NCBI RefSeq assembly: GCF_900113575.1
Contig: NZ_FOPV01000001.1
Coordinates: 248,001-312,000, forward strand
Source of the DNA: Nitrosospira sp. Nsp14
GTDB taxonomy: Bacteria; Pseudomonadota; Gammaproteobacteria; Burkholderiales; Nitrosomonadaceae
Length of the DNA stretch: 64,000 bases
Reading direction: 5' to 3'
Under the pieces are notes generated by a model. That model was not told where the DNA came from. It was given only the letters and a program-made list of their open reading frames with translations, and made no database searches. Positions within the stretch are counted from its first letter, which is position 1. Every line of letters begins with the position of its first letter. Of this stretch, positions 1-52,594 are shown one piece after another. Made by a program: the position numbers and the translations under genes.

Positions 1-670
1 CGTGCCGCACATCCCTGCCTTTGACCATGTATATCACATACTCCGCCATGTTTTTGGCATGGTCGCCGATGCGCTCGATCGCTTTCGCTATAAACAAAAT
101 CTCAAGTGCAGTTGAAATATTACGCGGATCTTCCATCATAAAAGTGATGAGCTGCCGCATGATGGAACGGAATTCTTCGTCAACCAGCTCATCCTGCCGC
201 ACTACTTGAGCCGCCGCAGTCAAGTCCAGACGAGCAAACGCGTCCAGAGATTTGCGCAACATTTCCATCGCGATGTGGGCGACATGCCGGATTTCCACGA
301 AGCGGGGCATATGCATGCGGTCGTTCTCGTAGATCAGTTTGGCCATGCGTGCTATTTTTTCCGCTTCATCGCCGATACGCTCCAGATCGGTTATGGTCTT
401 TATAACCGTCATGATCATGCGTAAGTCACCTGCGGCCGGCTGGCGGCGCGCAATAATCTGGCTGCAGATTTCGTCTATCGACACCTCCATGGCATTGACG
501 CGGTGATCATCCGCGATAATGTTTTCGATCAGGGATTCATTTCCACTGATGAGTGCGTCAATGGCTTTCTCGATCTGTTCTTCTACAAATCCGCCCATAT
601 GTAACACGCGCGTACGCACGGCTTCAAGATCAGCGTCGAATTGCTTGGAGATATGTTCGCTGCTTGCCAT
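1..670 (-). CDS. phoU: Phosphate signalling complex protein PhoU (3' end beyond window)
   Basis: PhoU is a cytoplasmic helical protein that links the Pst phosphate transporter to the PhoR/PhoB two-component system and keeps the Pho regulon off when phosphate is plentiful. The 223 visible codons hold both halves of the PhoU repeat, each with the acidic metal-binding motif: ERIGDEAEKIA near residues 97-107 and ERIGDHAKNMAEY near 199-211. The ATG at 670 is preceded by a good GAGGT Shine-Dalgarno about 7 nt upstream. The family is about 235 residues long, so only a few C-terminal residues are missing off the left edge. It lies 75 nt downstream of rpiA on the same strand and may be cotranscribed with it. 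No pst genes adjoin it here. Confidence 0.95.
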   Translation of the reverse strand, partial: MASSEHISKQFDADLEAVRTRVLHMGGFVEEQIEKAIDALISGNESLIENIIADDHRVNAMEVSIDEICSQIIARRQPAAGDLRMIMTVIKTITDLERIGDEAEKIARMAKLIYENDRMHMPRFVEIRHVAHIAMEMLRKSLDAFARLDLTAAAQVVRQDELVDEEFRSIMRQLITFMMEDPRNISTALEILFIAKAIERIGDHAKNMAEYVIYMVKGRDVRH

Positions 671-3667: not shown

Positions 3668-4993
3668 ATGAATTGCTTGCCCCGGTGCAAGGGTCGAATC
3701 CTGTTAGGCATGCTAGGCAGCTTATTCGCGCTTGTCTTAAGTCCAGGCGATGGACAGGCAGGTGATCTGGTCAATCTGTTCAAGGAAAGCGGCATCAAGA
3801 TCGGGGGTTGGGTCAATGCCGGCGCGACGTATAATCCCAACTACCCGGCTAATGGATACAACGGCACTGTTACCTTCGCCGACAGGGCCAATCGGTTCCA
3901 GTTAAACCAGTTCAATGTGTTTCTACAACGAACGGTCGTTACAGAGGGAAATGTATTCGACTTCGGCGGTCGATTCGATTTTCTATTTGGAACCGACGCG
4001 ATCTATACCCAAGCCTTCGGGATCCCTCCGTTCGACGTGAATTCCGGTCAGCCGCTGGATAGAGGAAATTGGGATCTCGACATATGTTGCTCCTCTACTC
4101 GTACTTACGGCATTGCGCTTCCTCAGGCATATCTTGAAGCTTATGTTCCTGTGGGCAGGGGTTTGAATATCAAGGCTGGGCACTTTTATTCACCTACGGG
4201 GTACGAAACGGTTCCTGCGCCTGACAATTTCTTCTATACCCATGCGTATACTTTTACAAACGGCGAACCGTTTACCCACACCGGACTGCTGGGTAACTAC
4301 GGCCTGAATTCGAATTGGTCGATCATGGGCGGGGCCACAACGGGCAGTGCCACTGGCGGATGGGATGGCACTTTCGACAAACAGCTGGGTAACTGGGGGG
4401 GATTGGGCGGAGTTACCTGGACCAGCGATGATTCCAGGACCTCGGCGAACATCACGGGTACGTATAGCGAGACGTCCACGCGCAGCAATAAGCCCTGGGG
4501 CATGTACAGTATTGTTTTGCAGCATCGGATTACCTCGAAAACCCATCTGGTCCTACACCACGCCCACGGGTATGCCGCCGGGGTTTTGCTGAATGGGGAA
4601 CACAAAAATGCTGAGTGGTATGGCATTAATACGCACTTGTATTATGACCTGCTGAATGACCTCACCATCGGCATTCGGGGCGAATGGTTTCGCGACCGGG
4701 ACGGTTTTCGTGTTTTTTCCCCGTTTCGCGTGATGGCGGCGACCGATAACACCGGATTCAGCTTTGCGGGTAGTTCTTTTACCAGCGCACCCGCTGATTA
4801 TTACGCGGTTACGCTGGGCATGAACTGGAGGCCTGCCAAACGGTTGAAGGTGGACTCGAAGCTGATACAAAAGCTGAACATCAGGCCAAATATCCGTTAT
4901 GACAGGGCGGATGGTATCGATCAAGCGTACAGGCCATTTGATAGCAGAAAAGATCAGTTCTTGTTTTCCCTCGACGCCACAATCCCCTTCTGA
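3668..4993 (+). CDS. Outer-membrane beta-barrel porin, BBP2-like (copy A)
   Basis: Predicted outer-membrane beta-barrel of the OmpL/BBP2-like porin group, 441 residues. A signal peptide covers about residues 1-32, ending near GDGQAG. The mature protein opens with SGIKIGGWVNAG, alternates aromatic and polar residues as barrel strands do, and ends in phenylalanine (DATIPF), the usual BAM recognition signal. It carries a vicinal cysteine pair at 140-141 (LDICCSST), unusual for a porin. By eye it is clearly paralogous to the porin at 6628, with alignable blocks along the whole length, including the GGVTWTSDD and WYGINTHLYYDL segments. Transcription is probably independent: about 260 bp of non-coding sequence precede it and the next gene converges on it 10 nt away. 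The substrate is unknown. Confidence 0.85.
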   Translation: MNCLPRCKGRILLGMLGSLFALVLSPGDGQAGDLVNLFKESGIKIGGWVNAGATYNPNYPANGYNGTVTFADRANRFQLNQFNVFLQRTVVTEGNVFDFGGRFDFLFGTDAIYTQAFGIPPFDVNSGQPLDRGNWDLDICCSSTRTYGIALPQAYLEAYVPVGRGLNIKAGHFYSPTGYETVPAPDNFFYTHAYTFTNGEPFTHTGLLGNYGLNSNWSIMGGATTGSATGGWDGTFDKQLGNWGGLGGVTWTSDDSRTSANITGTYSETSTRSNKPWGMYSIVLQHRITSKTHLVLHHAHGYAAGVLLNGEHKNAEWYGINTHLYYDLLNDLTIGIRGEWFRDRDGFRVFSPFRVMAATDNTGFSFAGSSFTSAPADYYAVTLGMNWRPAKRLKVDSKLIQKLNIRPNIRYDRADGIDQAYRPFDSRKDQFLFSLDATIPF

Positions 4994-5003
4994 TACCGAA
5001 GCG

Positions 5004-5444
5004 TCAGTTGCTTTCCTGCCCCGCCTTGCGGGCAGTGGCGGAGCGAACGGTCCATCCGTCACGGGCGACCTTGTCACGCCGGGTCTGTTCCAAAGCCAGT
5101 TGACGGTGAGCGGCAGCCTCTCTTATGTTTTCTGCCATGACTTCATTATATTTGCGGACCAGAGCAGCAGCATGCGATTTTAAATCCTGAGCTTGCCTAC
5201 CGTAGAGATAGCTTTTTTTGTCATAATGCTTAAGTAATTTTTTCTGTTCCTCCGCCTTGTTCCCCATTTCTCTGGCCGTATTTTCATAGTGCCGGGTCAA
5301 GGCAAGATGATCACTTGGCATTCTCGCATTCTGTGCAATTGCAGGGACAGACTCAGTCTGAGGAGCTTCCGAGAGGGTCATCTGAGCGCAAGACGCCATC
5401 AGGCCAAGGGAAAAAGCCGCAAACAGCATCCTTGCTTTCATCAT
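5004..5444 (-). CDS. Small coiled-coil lipoprotein, unknown function
   Basis: A 146-residue protein starting MMKARMLFAA with a lipoprotein signal peptide and lipobox LMASC, giving lipidated Cys19. The rest is charged and helical, rich in Lys, Glu, Gln and Ala (for example ENTAREMGNKAEEQKKLLKH), and probably forms a periplasmic coiled coil tethered to the outer membrane. The family is not recognised. The ATG at 5444 was chosen because it follows a GGGGGAT Shine-Dalgarno and starts the signal peptide directly; the longer reading from 5498 adds an unlikely N-terminus. It converges on porin A and diverges from the regulator at 5648 across a 200-bp AT-rich control region, so the three may form one locus. 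Confidence 0.75.
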   Translation of the reverse strand: MMKARMLFAAFSLGLMASCAQMTLSEAPQTESVPAIAQNARMPSDHLALTRHYENTAREMGNKAEEQKKLLKHYDKKSYLYGRQAQDLKSHAAALVRKYNEVMAENIREAAAHRQLALEQTRRDKVARDGWTVRSATARKAGQESN

Positions 5445-5647: not shown

Positions 5648-6274
5648 ATGGGTGAGCGGCAGAAACAATTGCTACAACTGCTGCGCGGGAGTAAGCCTGG
5701 TCTAAGCGTGGACGAGCTTTCCAAAGGGCTTGAGATTACCCGCAACGCGGTACGACGGCATCTCGCGTCTCTTGAGGTCGCGGGCTTTGTGACGGCTGGC
5801 GTAACTCGCCCTTCTGGGGGAGGCCGGCCGCAGCAACTCCACATCCTCACCGAGCTTGGCAAGGAAACCGCTCCTCGTCAATATTCGTGGCTTGCGCAAC
5901 TGGTCGTGGCATCGGTTCGGCGCGAGGAGGGCATCGACATGGCTAAGCGCATGACCGAAATCGGCGCGAATGTAGCGCAGCAGATCCGCAGTCAATATCC
6001 CGGTCTCAGCACGCATAAAGAGAAGGTCGAGAAGCTGACCGAAGTGATGGACCAGCTTGGCTACAGTGCGAGAAATGCAAGCCTGCCTGGCGGTGAGTCA
6101 ATTATCGAGGCGGATAACTGCGTTTTTCATGCAATGGCAAAAAAGGATTCGGCCATCTGCCATCTGGGCAGGGGGCTGATGGAAACCTTTACCGACAGTA
6201 ACGTTGAGCACCACGAGTGTATGGCGTGGGGTGGAAGTATCTGTCGATTCAAACTCAAATCGAAAGAAGAATAG
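5648..6274 (+). CDS. Winged-helix regulator with four-cysteine C-terminal domain (SufR-like, COG2345 type)
   Basis: A 208-residue DNA-binding protein. An N-terminal winged helix spans about residues 5-75 (LSVDELSKGLEITRNAVRRH as recognition region, then the GGGRPQQLHILTELG wing typical of this group). The C-terminal half resembles the sensory domain of SufR-like iron-sulphur regulators and has four cysteines at 158, 171, 191 and 199. Their spacing, C-x12-C-x19-C-x7-C, shares the first interval with what is described for cyanobacterial SufR (C-x12-C-x13-C-x14-C) but not the others. Whether it binds an iron-sulphur cluster or another metal is inference. It sits between two porin genes, diverging from the lipoprotein and codirectional with porin B. 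No suf or isc genes are near, so SufR function itself is doubtful. Confidence 0.8.
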   Translation: MGERQKQLLQLLRGSKPGLSVDELSKGLEITRNAVRRHLASLEVAGFVTAGVTRPSGGGRPQQLHILTELGKETAPRQYSWLAQLVVASVRREEGIDMAKRMTEIGANVAQQIRSQYPGLSTHKEKVEKLTEVMDQLGYSARNASLPGGESIIEADNCVFHAMAKKDSAICHLGRGLMETFTDSNVEHHECMAWGGSICRFKLKSKEE

Positions 6275-6520
6275 ATGTCCCGGATCAGCTTCTTGTCGAT
6301 TCCAAAAGCTGAAGTAAAACATATCAACGCTGTCGCCGCGAAATATTGACGGACGAATTATCCCAGCTCGCATCATGCTTCCATTTCCTCTGTAAATGGC
6401 TGTCCCCCTATCAGTCCCGCAGGCAGACGTGTTCGGACGCTGGTGCTGTTTACTGTGCCAGTTGGGATGGACAATTCATTGAGGCAGTACCTCATGCCGA
6501 TCCAGAACCTTAACGCGAAA
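6275..6520. other. Non-coding stretch before porin B, nothing recognised
   Basis: This is the first part of the 353-bp gap between the regulator and porin B. No gene, tRNA or strong hairpin was recognised. The remainder of the gap holds the phased repeats and promoter region described separately. Confidence 0.5.
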
Positions 6521-6560
6521 CCTCACATTTTCTTCACAATTCCATCACAATTATTTTACA
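6521..6560 (+). promoter_or_regulatory. Four TCACA-type direct repeats in 11-bp phase (PhoB/OmpR-type site)
   Basis: TCACA occurs at 6523, 6534 and 6545, and TTACA at 6556: four units exactly 11 bp apart, each followed by AT-rich spacers. This is the architecture bound by dimers of PhoB/PhoP/OmpR-family response regulators. The half-site is not a perfect enterobacterial Pho box (CTGTCAT), being closer to TTCACA. A possible -10, TTAATT at 6570-6575 preceded by TG, lies about 10 bp after the last unit, the placement expected when the activator replaces the -35. The site is about 70-105 bp upstream of the porin B start. Confidence 0.55.
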
Positions 6561-6627
6561 TATGCCGTGTTAATTTCGGGTGAAAATAACAACTCTATCG
6601 ATAGTGTTTTAGGAGGGGAGCCACAAT

Positions 6628-8046
6628 ATGTCGCGCATACCTAGAATAAGAAGTCGAATCATATTCGCCTCCGTGGTTGGCATGTTAGCAACCTTTGTTA
6701 ACGTAACGACCGCGAATGCTGACACCTATGCCAACGCAAACGCAAGTTCCAATGGTAATAATCGCAGCAATGGCGCGGGCATGGGCAACACTGCGTTGAA
6801 TGCTGCGGTGGAATGGTACAAGGATAGCGGTATCAGAATCGGTGGCTGGATTAATGGTGGCGCGACTTTCAACCCCAGCCAGCTGAACGGTTTCAACGGT
6901 CCGGTCACCTTTACCGACCAATCGAATCGAGCGCAATTGAATCAATTCTATGTTTATTTACAGCGCCCGGTGGTGGCAGAAGGTAGCAGCTGGGACTTCG
7001 GGTTTCGCGCCGATTTCATGTTCGGTAGCGACGCCATTTTTACCCAGGCGTATGGTGTTCCCGCGTTTGATGTCACTACCGGCCAGCCCTTGAGCAGAAG
7101 CAACTGGGATCTCGACTTATGCTGCGCCTCTACCAAGTATTACGGCGTCGCGTTTCCCCAGGCCTTTGCAGAGGTGTACGTGCCGGTCGGTAACGGACTC
7201 AATGTCAAGGTTGGCCATTTTTATACACCCATTGGGTATGAATCCGTACCCGCGCCGGACAATTTCTTTTATTCTCACGCTTATACAATGCAATACGGGG
7301 AGCCGTTCACTCATACCGGTGGTCTGGGAAATTACAACATAAACAAGAACTGGATGTTCATGGGCGGAGTTACCACGGGCAGCGCGACCGGCGGATGGGA
7401 TGGAGGCTTCGATAAGCAACTGGGTAACTGGGGCGGGCTGGCGGGCATCACCTGGACCAGCGACGATATGGGCAGTTCGGCCAATCTCAGTGGCAGCTAT
7501 AGCGCGACCTCTACCCGGAGCAGCGAGCCATGGATGCTATATAGCTTGGTACTGAAGCATAAATTTACCCCTAAAACCCATTTTGTCTTTCAACACGACC
7601 ATGGTTTCGCTGGTGGAGTTTTATTGAACGGGGTAATTCAAGATGCTGAATGGTACGGCATTAACACGCACTTTTACTATGACCTGATGCCGGAACTATC
7701 CGTGGGTGTTCGTGCGGAATGGTTCCGCGATCGCGATGGGTTTCGTGTCTTTTCCCCTGGCCGGGTGGCTGCCGCGACGAATAACCGGGGGTTCAGTTAT
7801 GCACTTGGCCAGAATCAGCTTAACAATAGCGTTGCCGCCCCAGCCGACTATTACGCGGTGACTGTAGGTATGAACTGGAAGGCTGCGAAGACTCTCAAGC
7901 TTGATTGGAAGGCGATGCAGCAGTTCAATGTGCGGCCGAATGTCCGCTACGATGCGGCGGACGGATTGCATGGCTTCGACTACCGTCCTTTTGGGGGTCA
8001 TAAAGACCAGGTTGTGTTATCCCTCGATTTCATGGTGCCATTCTAA
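6628..8046 (+). CDS. Outer-membrane beta-barrel porin, BBP2-like (copy B)
   Basis: A 472-residue paralogue of the porin at 3668. A signal peptide covers about residues 1-31 (cleavage near TTANA), followed by an Asn/Ser/Gly-rich linker at about 32-58 that copy A lacks. The barrel starts at SGIRIGGWINGGA and ends in phenylalanine (DFMVPF). The vicinal cysteine pair is conserved at 165-166 (LDLCCAST). The ATG has an excellent AGGAGGGG Shine-Dalgarno 10 nt upstream. The upstream phased repeat suggests control by a PhoB/OmpR-type response regulator; the neighbouring cysteine-rich regulator may also act. The substrate is unknown: copper, phosphate and anions are all possible and none is shown. Confidence 0.87.
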   Translation: MSRIPRIRSRIIFASVVGMLATFVNVTTANADTYANANASSNGNNRSNGAGMGNTALNAAVEWYKDSGIRIGGWINGGATFNPSQLNGFNGPVTFTDQSNRAQLNQFYVYLQRPVVAEGSSWDFGFRADFMFGSDAIFTQAYGVPAFDVTTGQPLSRSNWDLDLCCASTKYYGVAFPQAFAEVYVPVGNGLNVKVGHFYTPIGYESVPAPDNFFYSHAYTMQYGEPFTHTGGLGNYNINKNWMFMGGVTTGSATGGWDGGFDKQLGNWGGLAGITWTSDDMGSSANLSGSYSATSTRSSEPWMLYSLVLKHKFTPKTHFVFQHDHGFAGGVLLNGVIQDAEWYGINTHFYYDLMPELSVGVRAEWFRDRDGFRVFSPGRVAAATNNRGFSYALGQNQLNNSVAAPADYYAVTVGMNWKAAKTLKLDWKAMQQFNVRPNVRYDAADGLHGFDYRPFGGHKDQVVLSLDFMVPF

Positions 8047-51592: not shown

Positions 51593-52594
51593 ATGTTGAA
51601 ATTGCCGAGCAGTAAACAGGTTGGCCTGTCAGCTGTATTCATCACGCTGCTAACCTCCCTCAACGTAGCGAGTGCGGATATCGTAAAAATCGATGGCTCC
51701 AGCACTGTGTTTCCGATCACGGAAGCGGTGGCGGAAGATTTTCAAAAAGAAAAAAGGGGCGCTGTTAGGGTCACTGTCGGCATTTCGGGCACGGGTGGAG
51801 GTTTCAAGAAGTTCTGCCGTGGCGAAATCGATATAGTAGATGCGTCGCGGCCCATACTGAAAAACGAAATGGACGCCTGTAAAGCGGCGGGCGTGCAGTA
51901 TGTTGAGATGCCAGTCGCATTCGATGCGCTAACGGTGGTGGTAAATCCCAAAAACGATTGGAGCAAGACGATTACTGTCGCAGAGTTGAAGAAAATGTGG
52001 GAGCCAGCGGCGCAGGAGAAAATTACCAGATGGAACCAGGTAAATCCGGCCTGGCCTGATGAAGCGCTCAAGCTCTACGGCGCCGGAGCGGACTCGGGCA
52101 CCTTTGATTACTTTACCGAAGCGATTGTCGGTAAGGCAAAATCGAGTCGGGGCGATTTTACCGCGTCCGAGGACGACAACGTATTGGTGCAAGGGGTCGC
52201 GAGCGACAAGAGCGGGCTCGGGTTTTTTGGTTTCGCTTACTATATCGAAAATCAGAAAAAGGTAAAAGCGATTGCCGTCGACGGCGGTAACGGGCCTGTA
52301 CTGCCGTCCGCGAAGACGGTTGAGGATGGAACCTACCAGCCATTGTCCCGCCCTATTTTCATTTACGTGAACATCAAATCGGCGGAGAAGCCCGAGATCA
52401 GGCAATTTGTTGAGTTCTATATGAAAAACGCCCCGGCGCTGGTTAAAGAAGTAAAATTCTTCCCTCTACCGACGCAAGCCTATGCGATGAATCTGGAGCA
52501 TCTTAATAAAAAGAAACTGGGAACCGTGTTCGGTGGCAAGTCCGAAATAGGGCTACGAATCGAGGAACTACTAAAACGCGAGGCCAATTTGTAA
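51593..52594 (+). CDS. pstS: Phosphate ABC transporter substrate-binding protein, PstS family
   Basis: Periplasmic phosphate-binding protein for a PstCAB-type importer. The 333-residue protein has a signal peptide (about 1-28, ending NVASA), then DIVKIDGSSTVFPITEAVAE and VGISGTGGGFKKFCRGEIDI, whose Ser/Thr/Gly residues hold the phosphate, and GADSGTFDYF further on. It is of the shorter SphX/PstS-like type. The ATG has a GGGG Shine-Dalgarno. No pstC, pstA or pstB follows; the next gene is thrS. The transporter must be encoded elsewhere, or this is an accessory scavenger. No recognisable Pho box precedes it. Confidence 0.92.
   Translation: MLKLPSSKQVGLSAVFITLLTSLNVASADIVKIDGSSTVFPITEAVAEDFQKEKRGAVRVTVGISGTGGGFKKFCRGEIDIVDASRPILKNEMDACKAAGVQYVEMPVAFDALTVVVNPKNDWSKTITVAELKKMWEPAAQEKITRWNQVNPAWPDEALKLYGAGADSGTFDYFTEAIVGKAKSSRGDFTASEDDNVLVQGVASDKSGLGFFGFAYYIENQKKVKAIAVDGGNGPVLPSAKTVEDGTYQPLSRPIFIYVNIKSAEKPEIRQFVEFYMKNAPALVKEVKFFPLPTQAYAMNLEHLNKKKLGTVFGGKSEIGLRIEELLKREANL

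Follow-up and report, generated by a model that had tools for sequence, protein, structure and literature searches.

A conserved 11-bp-phased TTNACA direct-repeat array upstream of a Nitrosospira porin gene recurs in the Nitrosomonadaceae together with a candidate OmpR-family regulator

Upstream of the gene encoding porin B in a 64-kb stretch of Nitrosospira DNA (hereafter the window, meaning the whole stretch analyzed), four half-sites are repeated in direct orientation, TCACA at positions 6523, 6534 and 6545 and TTACA at 6556, with a period of exactly 11 bp, as a sequence-only reading of the same DNA had claimed. This array is conserved before orthologous porin genes of the genus, recurs across the family Nitrosomonadaceae, and both co-occurs with and tends to lie near the gene of an OmpR-family response regulator, RR3, which is encoded outside the window. 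Judged on sequence, it appears somewhat probable that the array is an OmpR/PhoB-family operator, most likely bound by RR3, through which porin B would be activated. The motif supplies a set of promoters and a single candidate regulator for study in nitrifying bacteria. Features of the window and the RR3 gene are collected in Table 1.

Table 1. Positions of the features discussed, in window coordinates unless a contig is given.
Feature	Position	Strand	Basis or remark
phoU domains	35-604	-	in window
Porin A, BBP2 paralogue, comparison gene	3668-4993	+	PF07642, 322 bits; without array
Winged-helix regulator with MetOD1-like output domain	5648-6274	+	Pfam HTH_11, HTH_5, MetOD1
Four-unit direct-repeat array, 11-bp phased	6523-6560	+	half-site TNACA, wider TTNACA
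Probable extended -10, TGtTAATTT (TGtTAcgTT in most orthologues)	6568-6576	+	alignment columns; putative promoter element
Imperfect palindrome GTTAATTTCGGGTGAAAATAAC	6569-6590	+	overlaps -10 and likely start; partly conserved; by eye
Conserved block gaTAGTGTTTT	6600-6610	+	columns 6602, 6604-6606 and 6609 at 2.00 bits
Ribosome-binding site GGAGGGG	6612-6618	+	sequence; columns 6617-6618 at 2.00 bits
Porin B, outer-membrane beta-barrel, BBP2/OmpL-like family	6628-8046	+	Pfam PF07642, 308.1 bits
PstS-family phosphate-binding protein gene	51593-52594	+	TIGR02136, 301.4 bits (cut-off 206.6)
RR3, OmpR-family response regulator	G000 contig C49, 12709-13389		outside window; between hemE-like gene and its histidine-kinase gene

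The array ends, at 6560, 67 bp before the start of porin B. With up to three mismatches allowed, the four-unit pattern was found once in the 64-kb window, whereas 100 shuffles preserving dinucleotides gave 0.01 on average. No array was present within 300 bp upstream of porin A, the top score being 12/24 as against 21/24 at porin B, and the claim that porin A lacks such an array holds. Matches in larger sets were counted on both strands, overlapping ones included, with the pattern read backwards as control. In the genome to which the window belongs (G000; 3.36 Mb in 54 contigs), exact three-unit TYACA was found only at porin B, as two overlapping matches versus none for the reversed pattern; three TTCACA units with up to three mismatches gave 17 matches versus 3 reversed, some of the weak ones looking like chance. 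Across the genus, TYACA in three units was matched 80 times versus 5 reversed, in 17 of 23 genomes, and TTCACA in two units 109 times versus 3, in 22 of 23. Across the Nitrosomonadaceae, TTCACA-N5-TTCACA-N5-TTCACA was found 102 times, in 47 of 125 genomes, and never in the reversed form. Arrays of more than four units exist at some loci (e.g. L156 and L169). The array thus looks like a genuine conserved regulatory element at many genes of the family.

Conservation before orthologous porins was assessed in an alignment of the 150 bp upstream of porin B at 22 loci of the Nitrosospira genus group (L003-L024, the window's own included); named relatives of the porin include those of Nitrosospira sp. 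Nsp2, N. multiformis and others. The array was found at all 22 loci, scoring 16-22 out of 24 against four TTCACA units (weak at L024, with 16; 18 at L007, of which L034 is a twin), its top-scoring register beginning 104-119 bp 5' of the start codon. Mean column information was 1.46 bits in the units, 0.89 in the spacers and 0.41 in the 40 bp upstream (Mann-Whitney p 0.0018 for unit versus spacer columns), so that conservation is 11-bp periodic with an unconserved upstream flank and a conserved half-site T-n-A-C-A. Absence of the motif before orthologous porins had been named in advance as evidence against the proposal; within the genus, its presence at these loci is the opposite outcome. From the 23rd genus genome (G060, 80% complete), in which the porin match was weaker, no locus entered the alignment. 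Among porin homologues outside the genus group (66 rows, some genomes entering twice), no array was detected, with a best score of 14/24 and a lowest shuffle p of 0.13; these rows comprised Nitrosomonas, Methylobacter and others, together with two metagenome-assembled genomes (L081, titled Nitrosospira, and L084, Nitrosovibrio) with porins 63-64% identical. Six loci with start or upstream DNA missing (L025, L048, L098, L103, L107 and L112) were excluded. Scores at porin loci were judged by shuffles because the reversed-unit control overlaps the motif and is poor there, scoring 19 on the window array itself. A chance repeat, or low-complexity DNA, might be suspected in a region that is AT-rich, but the shuffle mean, the conservation at the aligned loci and the family-wide counts against the reversed pattern exclude a chance origin of the porin B array, and the probability left to such an explanation is negligible.

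Two other classes of site were rejected. A CRP/FNR site (inverted TGTGA-N6-TCACA) was ruled out, all four window units being direct, and a cluster of DnaA boxes (TTWTNCACA 9-mers) was ruled out in the window, where the flanks 5' of CACA do not fit TTWTN. During this DnaA-box check one TTATTCACA was seen by eye in each of the orthologues L013, L017 and L022.

Downstream of the array, TAATTT (6571-6576) begins after a gap of exactly 10 bp from the last unit and is preceded by a TG at 6568-6569; columns 6568, 6569, 6571, 6572, 6575 and 6576 each carry 2.00 bits in the 22-row alignment. The sequence-only reading had pointed to a -10 at the spacing expected of activator-dependent promoters, and this was borne out: the array adjoins the putative promoter element TGtTAcgTT in the position typical of activated promoters. 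A consensus scan of 6275-6700 yielded no sigma-70-like promoters versus 0.8 expected by chance, a result that is weak alone given this expectation but compatible with an activator-dependent promoter. Since the array ends 10 bp before the -10 and covers the place of the -35, a bound regulator would most likely be an activator; at porin B it would recruit RNA polymerase and activate an otherwise weak promoter. In the orthologues, the array is followed in order by TGtTAcgTT, the partly conserved palindrome, the block gTAGTGTtTt, which in the window is likely located in the 5' leader, and the ribosome-binding site. The palindrome is near-perfect in orthologue L022, as GTTACGTTTCGAAACGTAATAC, and in L018 too, and represents a possible second operator, for a second regulator. 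The gene directly upstream of porin B in the window encodes a winged-helix regulator, relatives of which occur near array-bearing coiled-coil genes at L153 (by Pfam) and L164 (by eye), and this protein might control porin B via the array or the palindrome; regulators of its type usually recognize inverted repeats, which suit the palindrome better than a direct-repeat array, and such control is judged very unlikely. Several cysteines lie near the C-terminus of the winged-helix protein.

Regulators of the OmpR/PhoB family bind as tandem dimers on direct repeats. Operators of this type were defined here by at least two half-sites in the same orientation with a period of 10-11 bp; the array has four with a period of 11, so that the OmpR/PhoB-like geometry claimed for it was confirmed and fits a response-regulator binding array. 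The regulator would bind head to tail, each 11-bp unit taking one subunit and the four units together two cooperative dimers, and the bound subunits would share one face of the helix. PmrA and QseB boxes, direct repeats of about 11 bp, share regulator family and geometry with the array and differ in half-site. The E. coli Pho box (CTGTCAT-N4-CTGTCAT) likewise consists of 11-bp direct repeats and, at phoA, its second repeat lies 10 bp from the -10, the same gap as at porin B, but its half-site is CTGTCAT and not TTNACA. Repeats bound by Bacillus subtilis PhoP, TT(A/T/C)ACA with spacers of about 5 bp and several units per promoter, are nearly identical to the porin B array in half-site and spacing, whereas their targets, phosphate and cell-wall genes, differ.

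According to the portion of PMC4832192 available, Mycobacterium tuberculosis PhoP binds as a tandem dimer to TCACAGC-N4-TCACAGC, with a period of 11 bp, and binds arrays of three or four motifs tighter. The TCACA core, the direct repeats and the 11-bp period are thus shared with the porin B array, the better binding of longer arrays being a property of PhoP; by contrast, the PhoP half-site has 7 bp and ends in GC, and the organism and the targets are others (PMC4832192, same portion). Because core and period are the same, the porin B array may well be an operator for two cooperative dimers. By eye, the recognition helix of RR3 is unlike that of M. tuberculosis PhoP, as far as the latter is covered by that source. 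The PHO box of Streptomyces PhoP, cited in the available part of PMC9019756, is also built of 11-bp direct repeats, with GTTCACC units and a TTCAC core, but carries C instead of A after TTCAC and serves phosphate targets, genes that are array-free in the genome analyzed here. For Riemerella anatipestifer PhoP, a Gram-negative member of the OmpR family, TTTAACA was given as the most conserved part of the motif in the accessible text of PMC9603813, with a TTnACA-like core and other targets; that text states no repeat geometry. Taken by its sequence features, the array would belong to the known OmpR/PhoB kind of tandem direct repeat, and the motif recurring in this family would be new. A search of the open literature, in which most matches were judged from their listing and from which subscription journals were largely absent, returned no description of the motif or of RR3.

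The sequence-only reading had suggested a phosphate-responsive porin, on the grounds that phoU and pstS are also in the window, which is correct. In its strongest form, PhoB would bind the array and porin B would be a phosphate-starvation porin. The 10-bp gap to the -10, equal to that of E. coli phoA, would be in keeping with this. The genome encodes a genuine PhoB (TIGR02154, 359.7 bits, cut-off 296.2) and PhoR (TIGR02966, 460.7 bits, cut-off 334.2), and PhoP regulators elsewhere act on similar repeats (Streptomyces, PMC9019756; R. anatipestifer, PMC9603813; both in the parts available). Against it, the 300 bp before pstS, rpiA-phoU and phoB of the same genome contained no array (at most 10/18) and no CTGTCAT pair (at most 9/14), which leaves the link to phosphate unsupported. 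The proposed whole-genome check, in which arrays were to cluster before pst, phn or pho genes, therefore gave none at these three; of the outcome named beforehand as contrary, namely no phased matches at phosphate genes while a true Pho box is found there, the first part was observed and the second was not. No pst, phn or pho gene was recognized among the array-linked genes read. PhoB retains the recognition helix RTVDVHIRRLRKAL, which we take to be that of E. coli PhoB and which would predict CTGTCAT sites, whereas the porin B half-site is TNACA and CTGTCAT pairs within 300 bp upstream of porin B scored no higher than 10/14. Genus-wide, TGTCAT-N5-TGTCA was matched 26 times versus 11 for the reversed control (23 genomes), and at nine such loci no pst or pho gene was recognized within 350 bp downstream. 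Nor did arrays track PhoB: three-unit arrays were present in 46 of 121 genomes with PhoB and one of four without (p 0.52), in none of 19 genomes with PhoB and without RR3, and one array cluster lay within 10 kb of phoB versus 0.8 expected, a count that covers 43 of the 125 genomes, those with a PhoB position entered. Phosphate control by PhoB was rejected as the main reading, since pstS, rpiA-phoU and phoB of this genome are array-free and arrays do not follow PhoB, and we consider it improbable. The proviso that the half-site is not the standard Pho box and that another response regulator could be the binder became instead the best-supported reading.

Five PF00486 matches were found in the genome, of which three were recognized, by reading, as full response regulators: PhoB, a CpxR-like protein and RR3. 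Among these, RR3 would be the most likely binder; co-occurrence with arrays and gene neighborhood make it the best candidate. RR3 scored 170 bits with the NCBIfam model of PhoB, 168 with PmrA and 163 with QseB, all below cut-off, and reached none of the 25 models shown. Presence profiles across genomes were compiled for RR3 and PhoB. An orthologue search with a score cut set by us found RR3 in 104 of 125 genomes and not in 21 (G117 and G060 being counted as present from fragments, and G056 and G033 as absent though incomplete). Three-unit arrays occurred in 47 of the 104 genomes with RR3 versus 0 of the 21 without (Fisher p 1.5e-5, ignoring relatedness) and, within genus g3, in 37 of 74 versus 0 of 11 (p 0.001, likewise ignoring relatedness). 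This profile is confounded by phylogeny, and the 11 RR3-free g3 genomes may represent few clades. In genus g2, RR3 was present in eight of nine genomes and an exact three-unit array in none. Two-unit matches were counted in 57 chosen genomes, comprising all 21 RR3-free ones and 36 in which RR3 is present, 33 of these 36 without a three-unit array; 77 matches (0.73 per Mb) were found with RR3 and 8 (0.18 per Mb) without, versus 8 for the reversed control across all 57. The RR3-free matches were in G064 (three), G056 (two), G081, G077 and G033 (one each); G056, 93% complete, has the porin array, and no RR3 orthologue was found in it.

Arrays were also located near RR3. Nine array clusters in seven genomes, close relatives among them, lay within 10 kb of RR3 versus 1.3 expected, and a tenth, in G065, at 10.5 kb; this count used 102 RR3 and 43 PhoB positions, with array lists of unequal strictness between genomes. 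In the window's own genome, the 8.5 kb around RR3 contained no array of at least 14/18, the nearest lying 7 kb off before a SulP gene. A binder other than RR3, whether the CpxR-like response regulator (at C35) or some regulator not of the OmpR family, is rather unlikely. In favor of the CpxR-like protein, it is present in the genome (241.7 bits against the CpxR model, short of the 341 cut-off), and several of the genes linked to arrays concern the envelope; CpxR sites, however, are GTAAA-N5-GTAAA, and the 9 kb around its gene in the own genome held no three-unit match of at least 14/18. This last point does not discriminate, because the RR3 and PhoB stretches of that genome are equally empty. 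Multiple RR3-like genes, 91-99% identical, were noted in G014 (two) and G052 (three).

To return to RR3, its gene is followed by that of its kinase, and in the stretches read the same 20 kb holds genes for uptake of dissolved inorganic carbon. By Pfam on representatives and tblastn, these were SbtA (PF05982), the PII-like SbtB, SulP, DabB, DabA (PF10070) and a CsoSCA-like protein. Such genes were found in 20 of 21 RR3 20-kb stretches, G003 being the exception, versus 0 of 20 PhoB stretches; in four of the 20 the call consists of a DabA-like tblastn match of 33-36% identity. The stretch of G036 begins after RR3, its link to RR3 being joined from the orthologue search. Arrays of at least 14/18 preceded SulP or SbtA in six of the 21 (G036, G040, G010, G002, G082 and the own genome) and no carbon gene in the other 15; G014 also has an array before SulP. 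Before SulP and SbtA the arrays read TTCACA towards the gene, like that of porin B. The threshold of 14/18 is loose, with 18 matches around RR3 (21 stretches) and 8 around PhoB (20 stretches); at 15/18 there were 9 versus 1 in 20 stretches of each kind, a comparison biased by six of the 20 RR3 stretches (G036, G002, G082, G072, G062 and G065) having been chosen with knowledge of nearby arrays. The 20 retrieved RR3 stretches were all selected by us, and because of this choice the gene content is the safer result. In G003 (L337), where RR3 has no adjoining carbon genes, an array and, about 2 kb downstream of it, an SbtA-like gene were seen by eye, separated by a transposase-like ORF. In the available text of PMC10880623 and PMC12628692, both on carbon uptake by autotrophs, no regulator terms occur.

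Genes carrying arrays were grouped from 88 array clusters in the retrieved stretches with a simple ORF caller, by which several small ORFs are probably in the wrong frame. Groups present in at least three genomes were 79-aa membrane-type proteins (10 genomes), His-rich small secreted proteins (9), DUF6733 proteins (7; Pfam on one), 71-aa membrane-type proteins (4), SulP transporters (3), cytochrome-like proteins (3; Pfam on one) and peptides of 38-43 aa (3, and a fourth by eye); one further three-genome group may be a wrong-frame ORF. Those recognized are envelope, inorganic-carbon and small membrane-protein genes. In G058 (L166), a four-unit array lies 181 bp ahead of the start of a gene for AmoC (PF04896), and a short ORF may begin in the interval; no amoA-like ORF was recognized directly after the amoC gene. 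Under control by RR3, porin B would be part of a regulon with carbon-transporter and other envelope genes. A signal related to inorganic carbon, pH or envelope state is a guess from neighboring genes. A fuller proposal is tentative and, as a whole, doubtful: RR3 and its kinase would be an undescribed two-component system of ammonia oxidizers that senses inorganic-carbon supply, or linked pH, and via 11-bp-phased TTNACA arrays switches SbtAB, SulP/BicA-like and DAB uptake, porins, small membrane proteins and, in some species, amoC, with porin B as the outer-membrane entry route. If the carbon link were true, one switch in soil nitrifiers would govern carbon uptake together with the permeability of the envelope and, for at least one genome, amoC. 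Porins were abundant in three ammonia oxidizers, in which 24 h of ammonia starvation altered few proteins, according to the part of PMC5960693 available, which does not touch on how this porin is controlled.

Direction and position of the arrays bear on the sign of regulation. At the 38-43-aa membrane-peptide genes the array overlaps, by eye, both the -10 and the start of a strong TTGACA-N17-TATTCT-like promoter, a repressor position that suggests repression there. At the 66-79-aa and efflux genes the orientation is opposite, with TGTGAA towards the gene, as it is for many arrays of Nitrosomonas. By extension the array might repress, and not activate, porin B; there, however, the -10 lies downstream of the array and the scan showed no sigma-70 -35 box, and repression of porin B is unlikely, although less so than binding by a CpxR-like or other regulator. 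Copies of the 38-43-aa gene with the array over the -10 were seen at L142, L155, L159, L161, L162 and L170, three of them in G002, and two of the peptide sequences, when searched, gave no Pfam match. The 66-79-aa proteins look like two-helix membrane proteins, and three representatives gave no Pfam match above cut-off; their genes were noted in the Nitrosomonas group, genus g2 and two Nitrosospira-group genomes (L210, L213, L215, L218, L221, L225-L227, L336, L338-L341, L343, L344, L346 and others). In the window itself, the minus-strand gene at 5004-5438 has, by eye, a good TTGACA-N17-TATAGT promoter and no array upstream; its product, a small secreted protein with coiled coils, is by eye similar to the coiled-coil family whose genes are linked to arrays, with which it shares YLYGRQAQDL.
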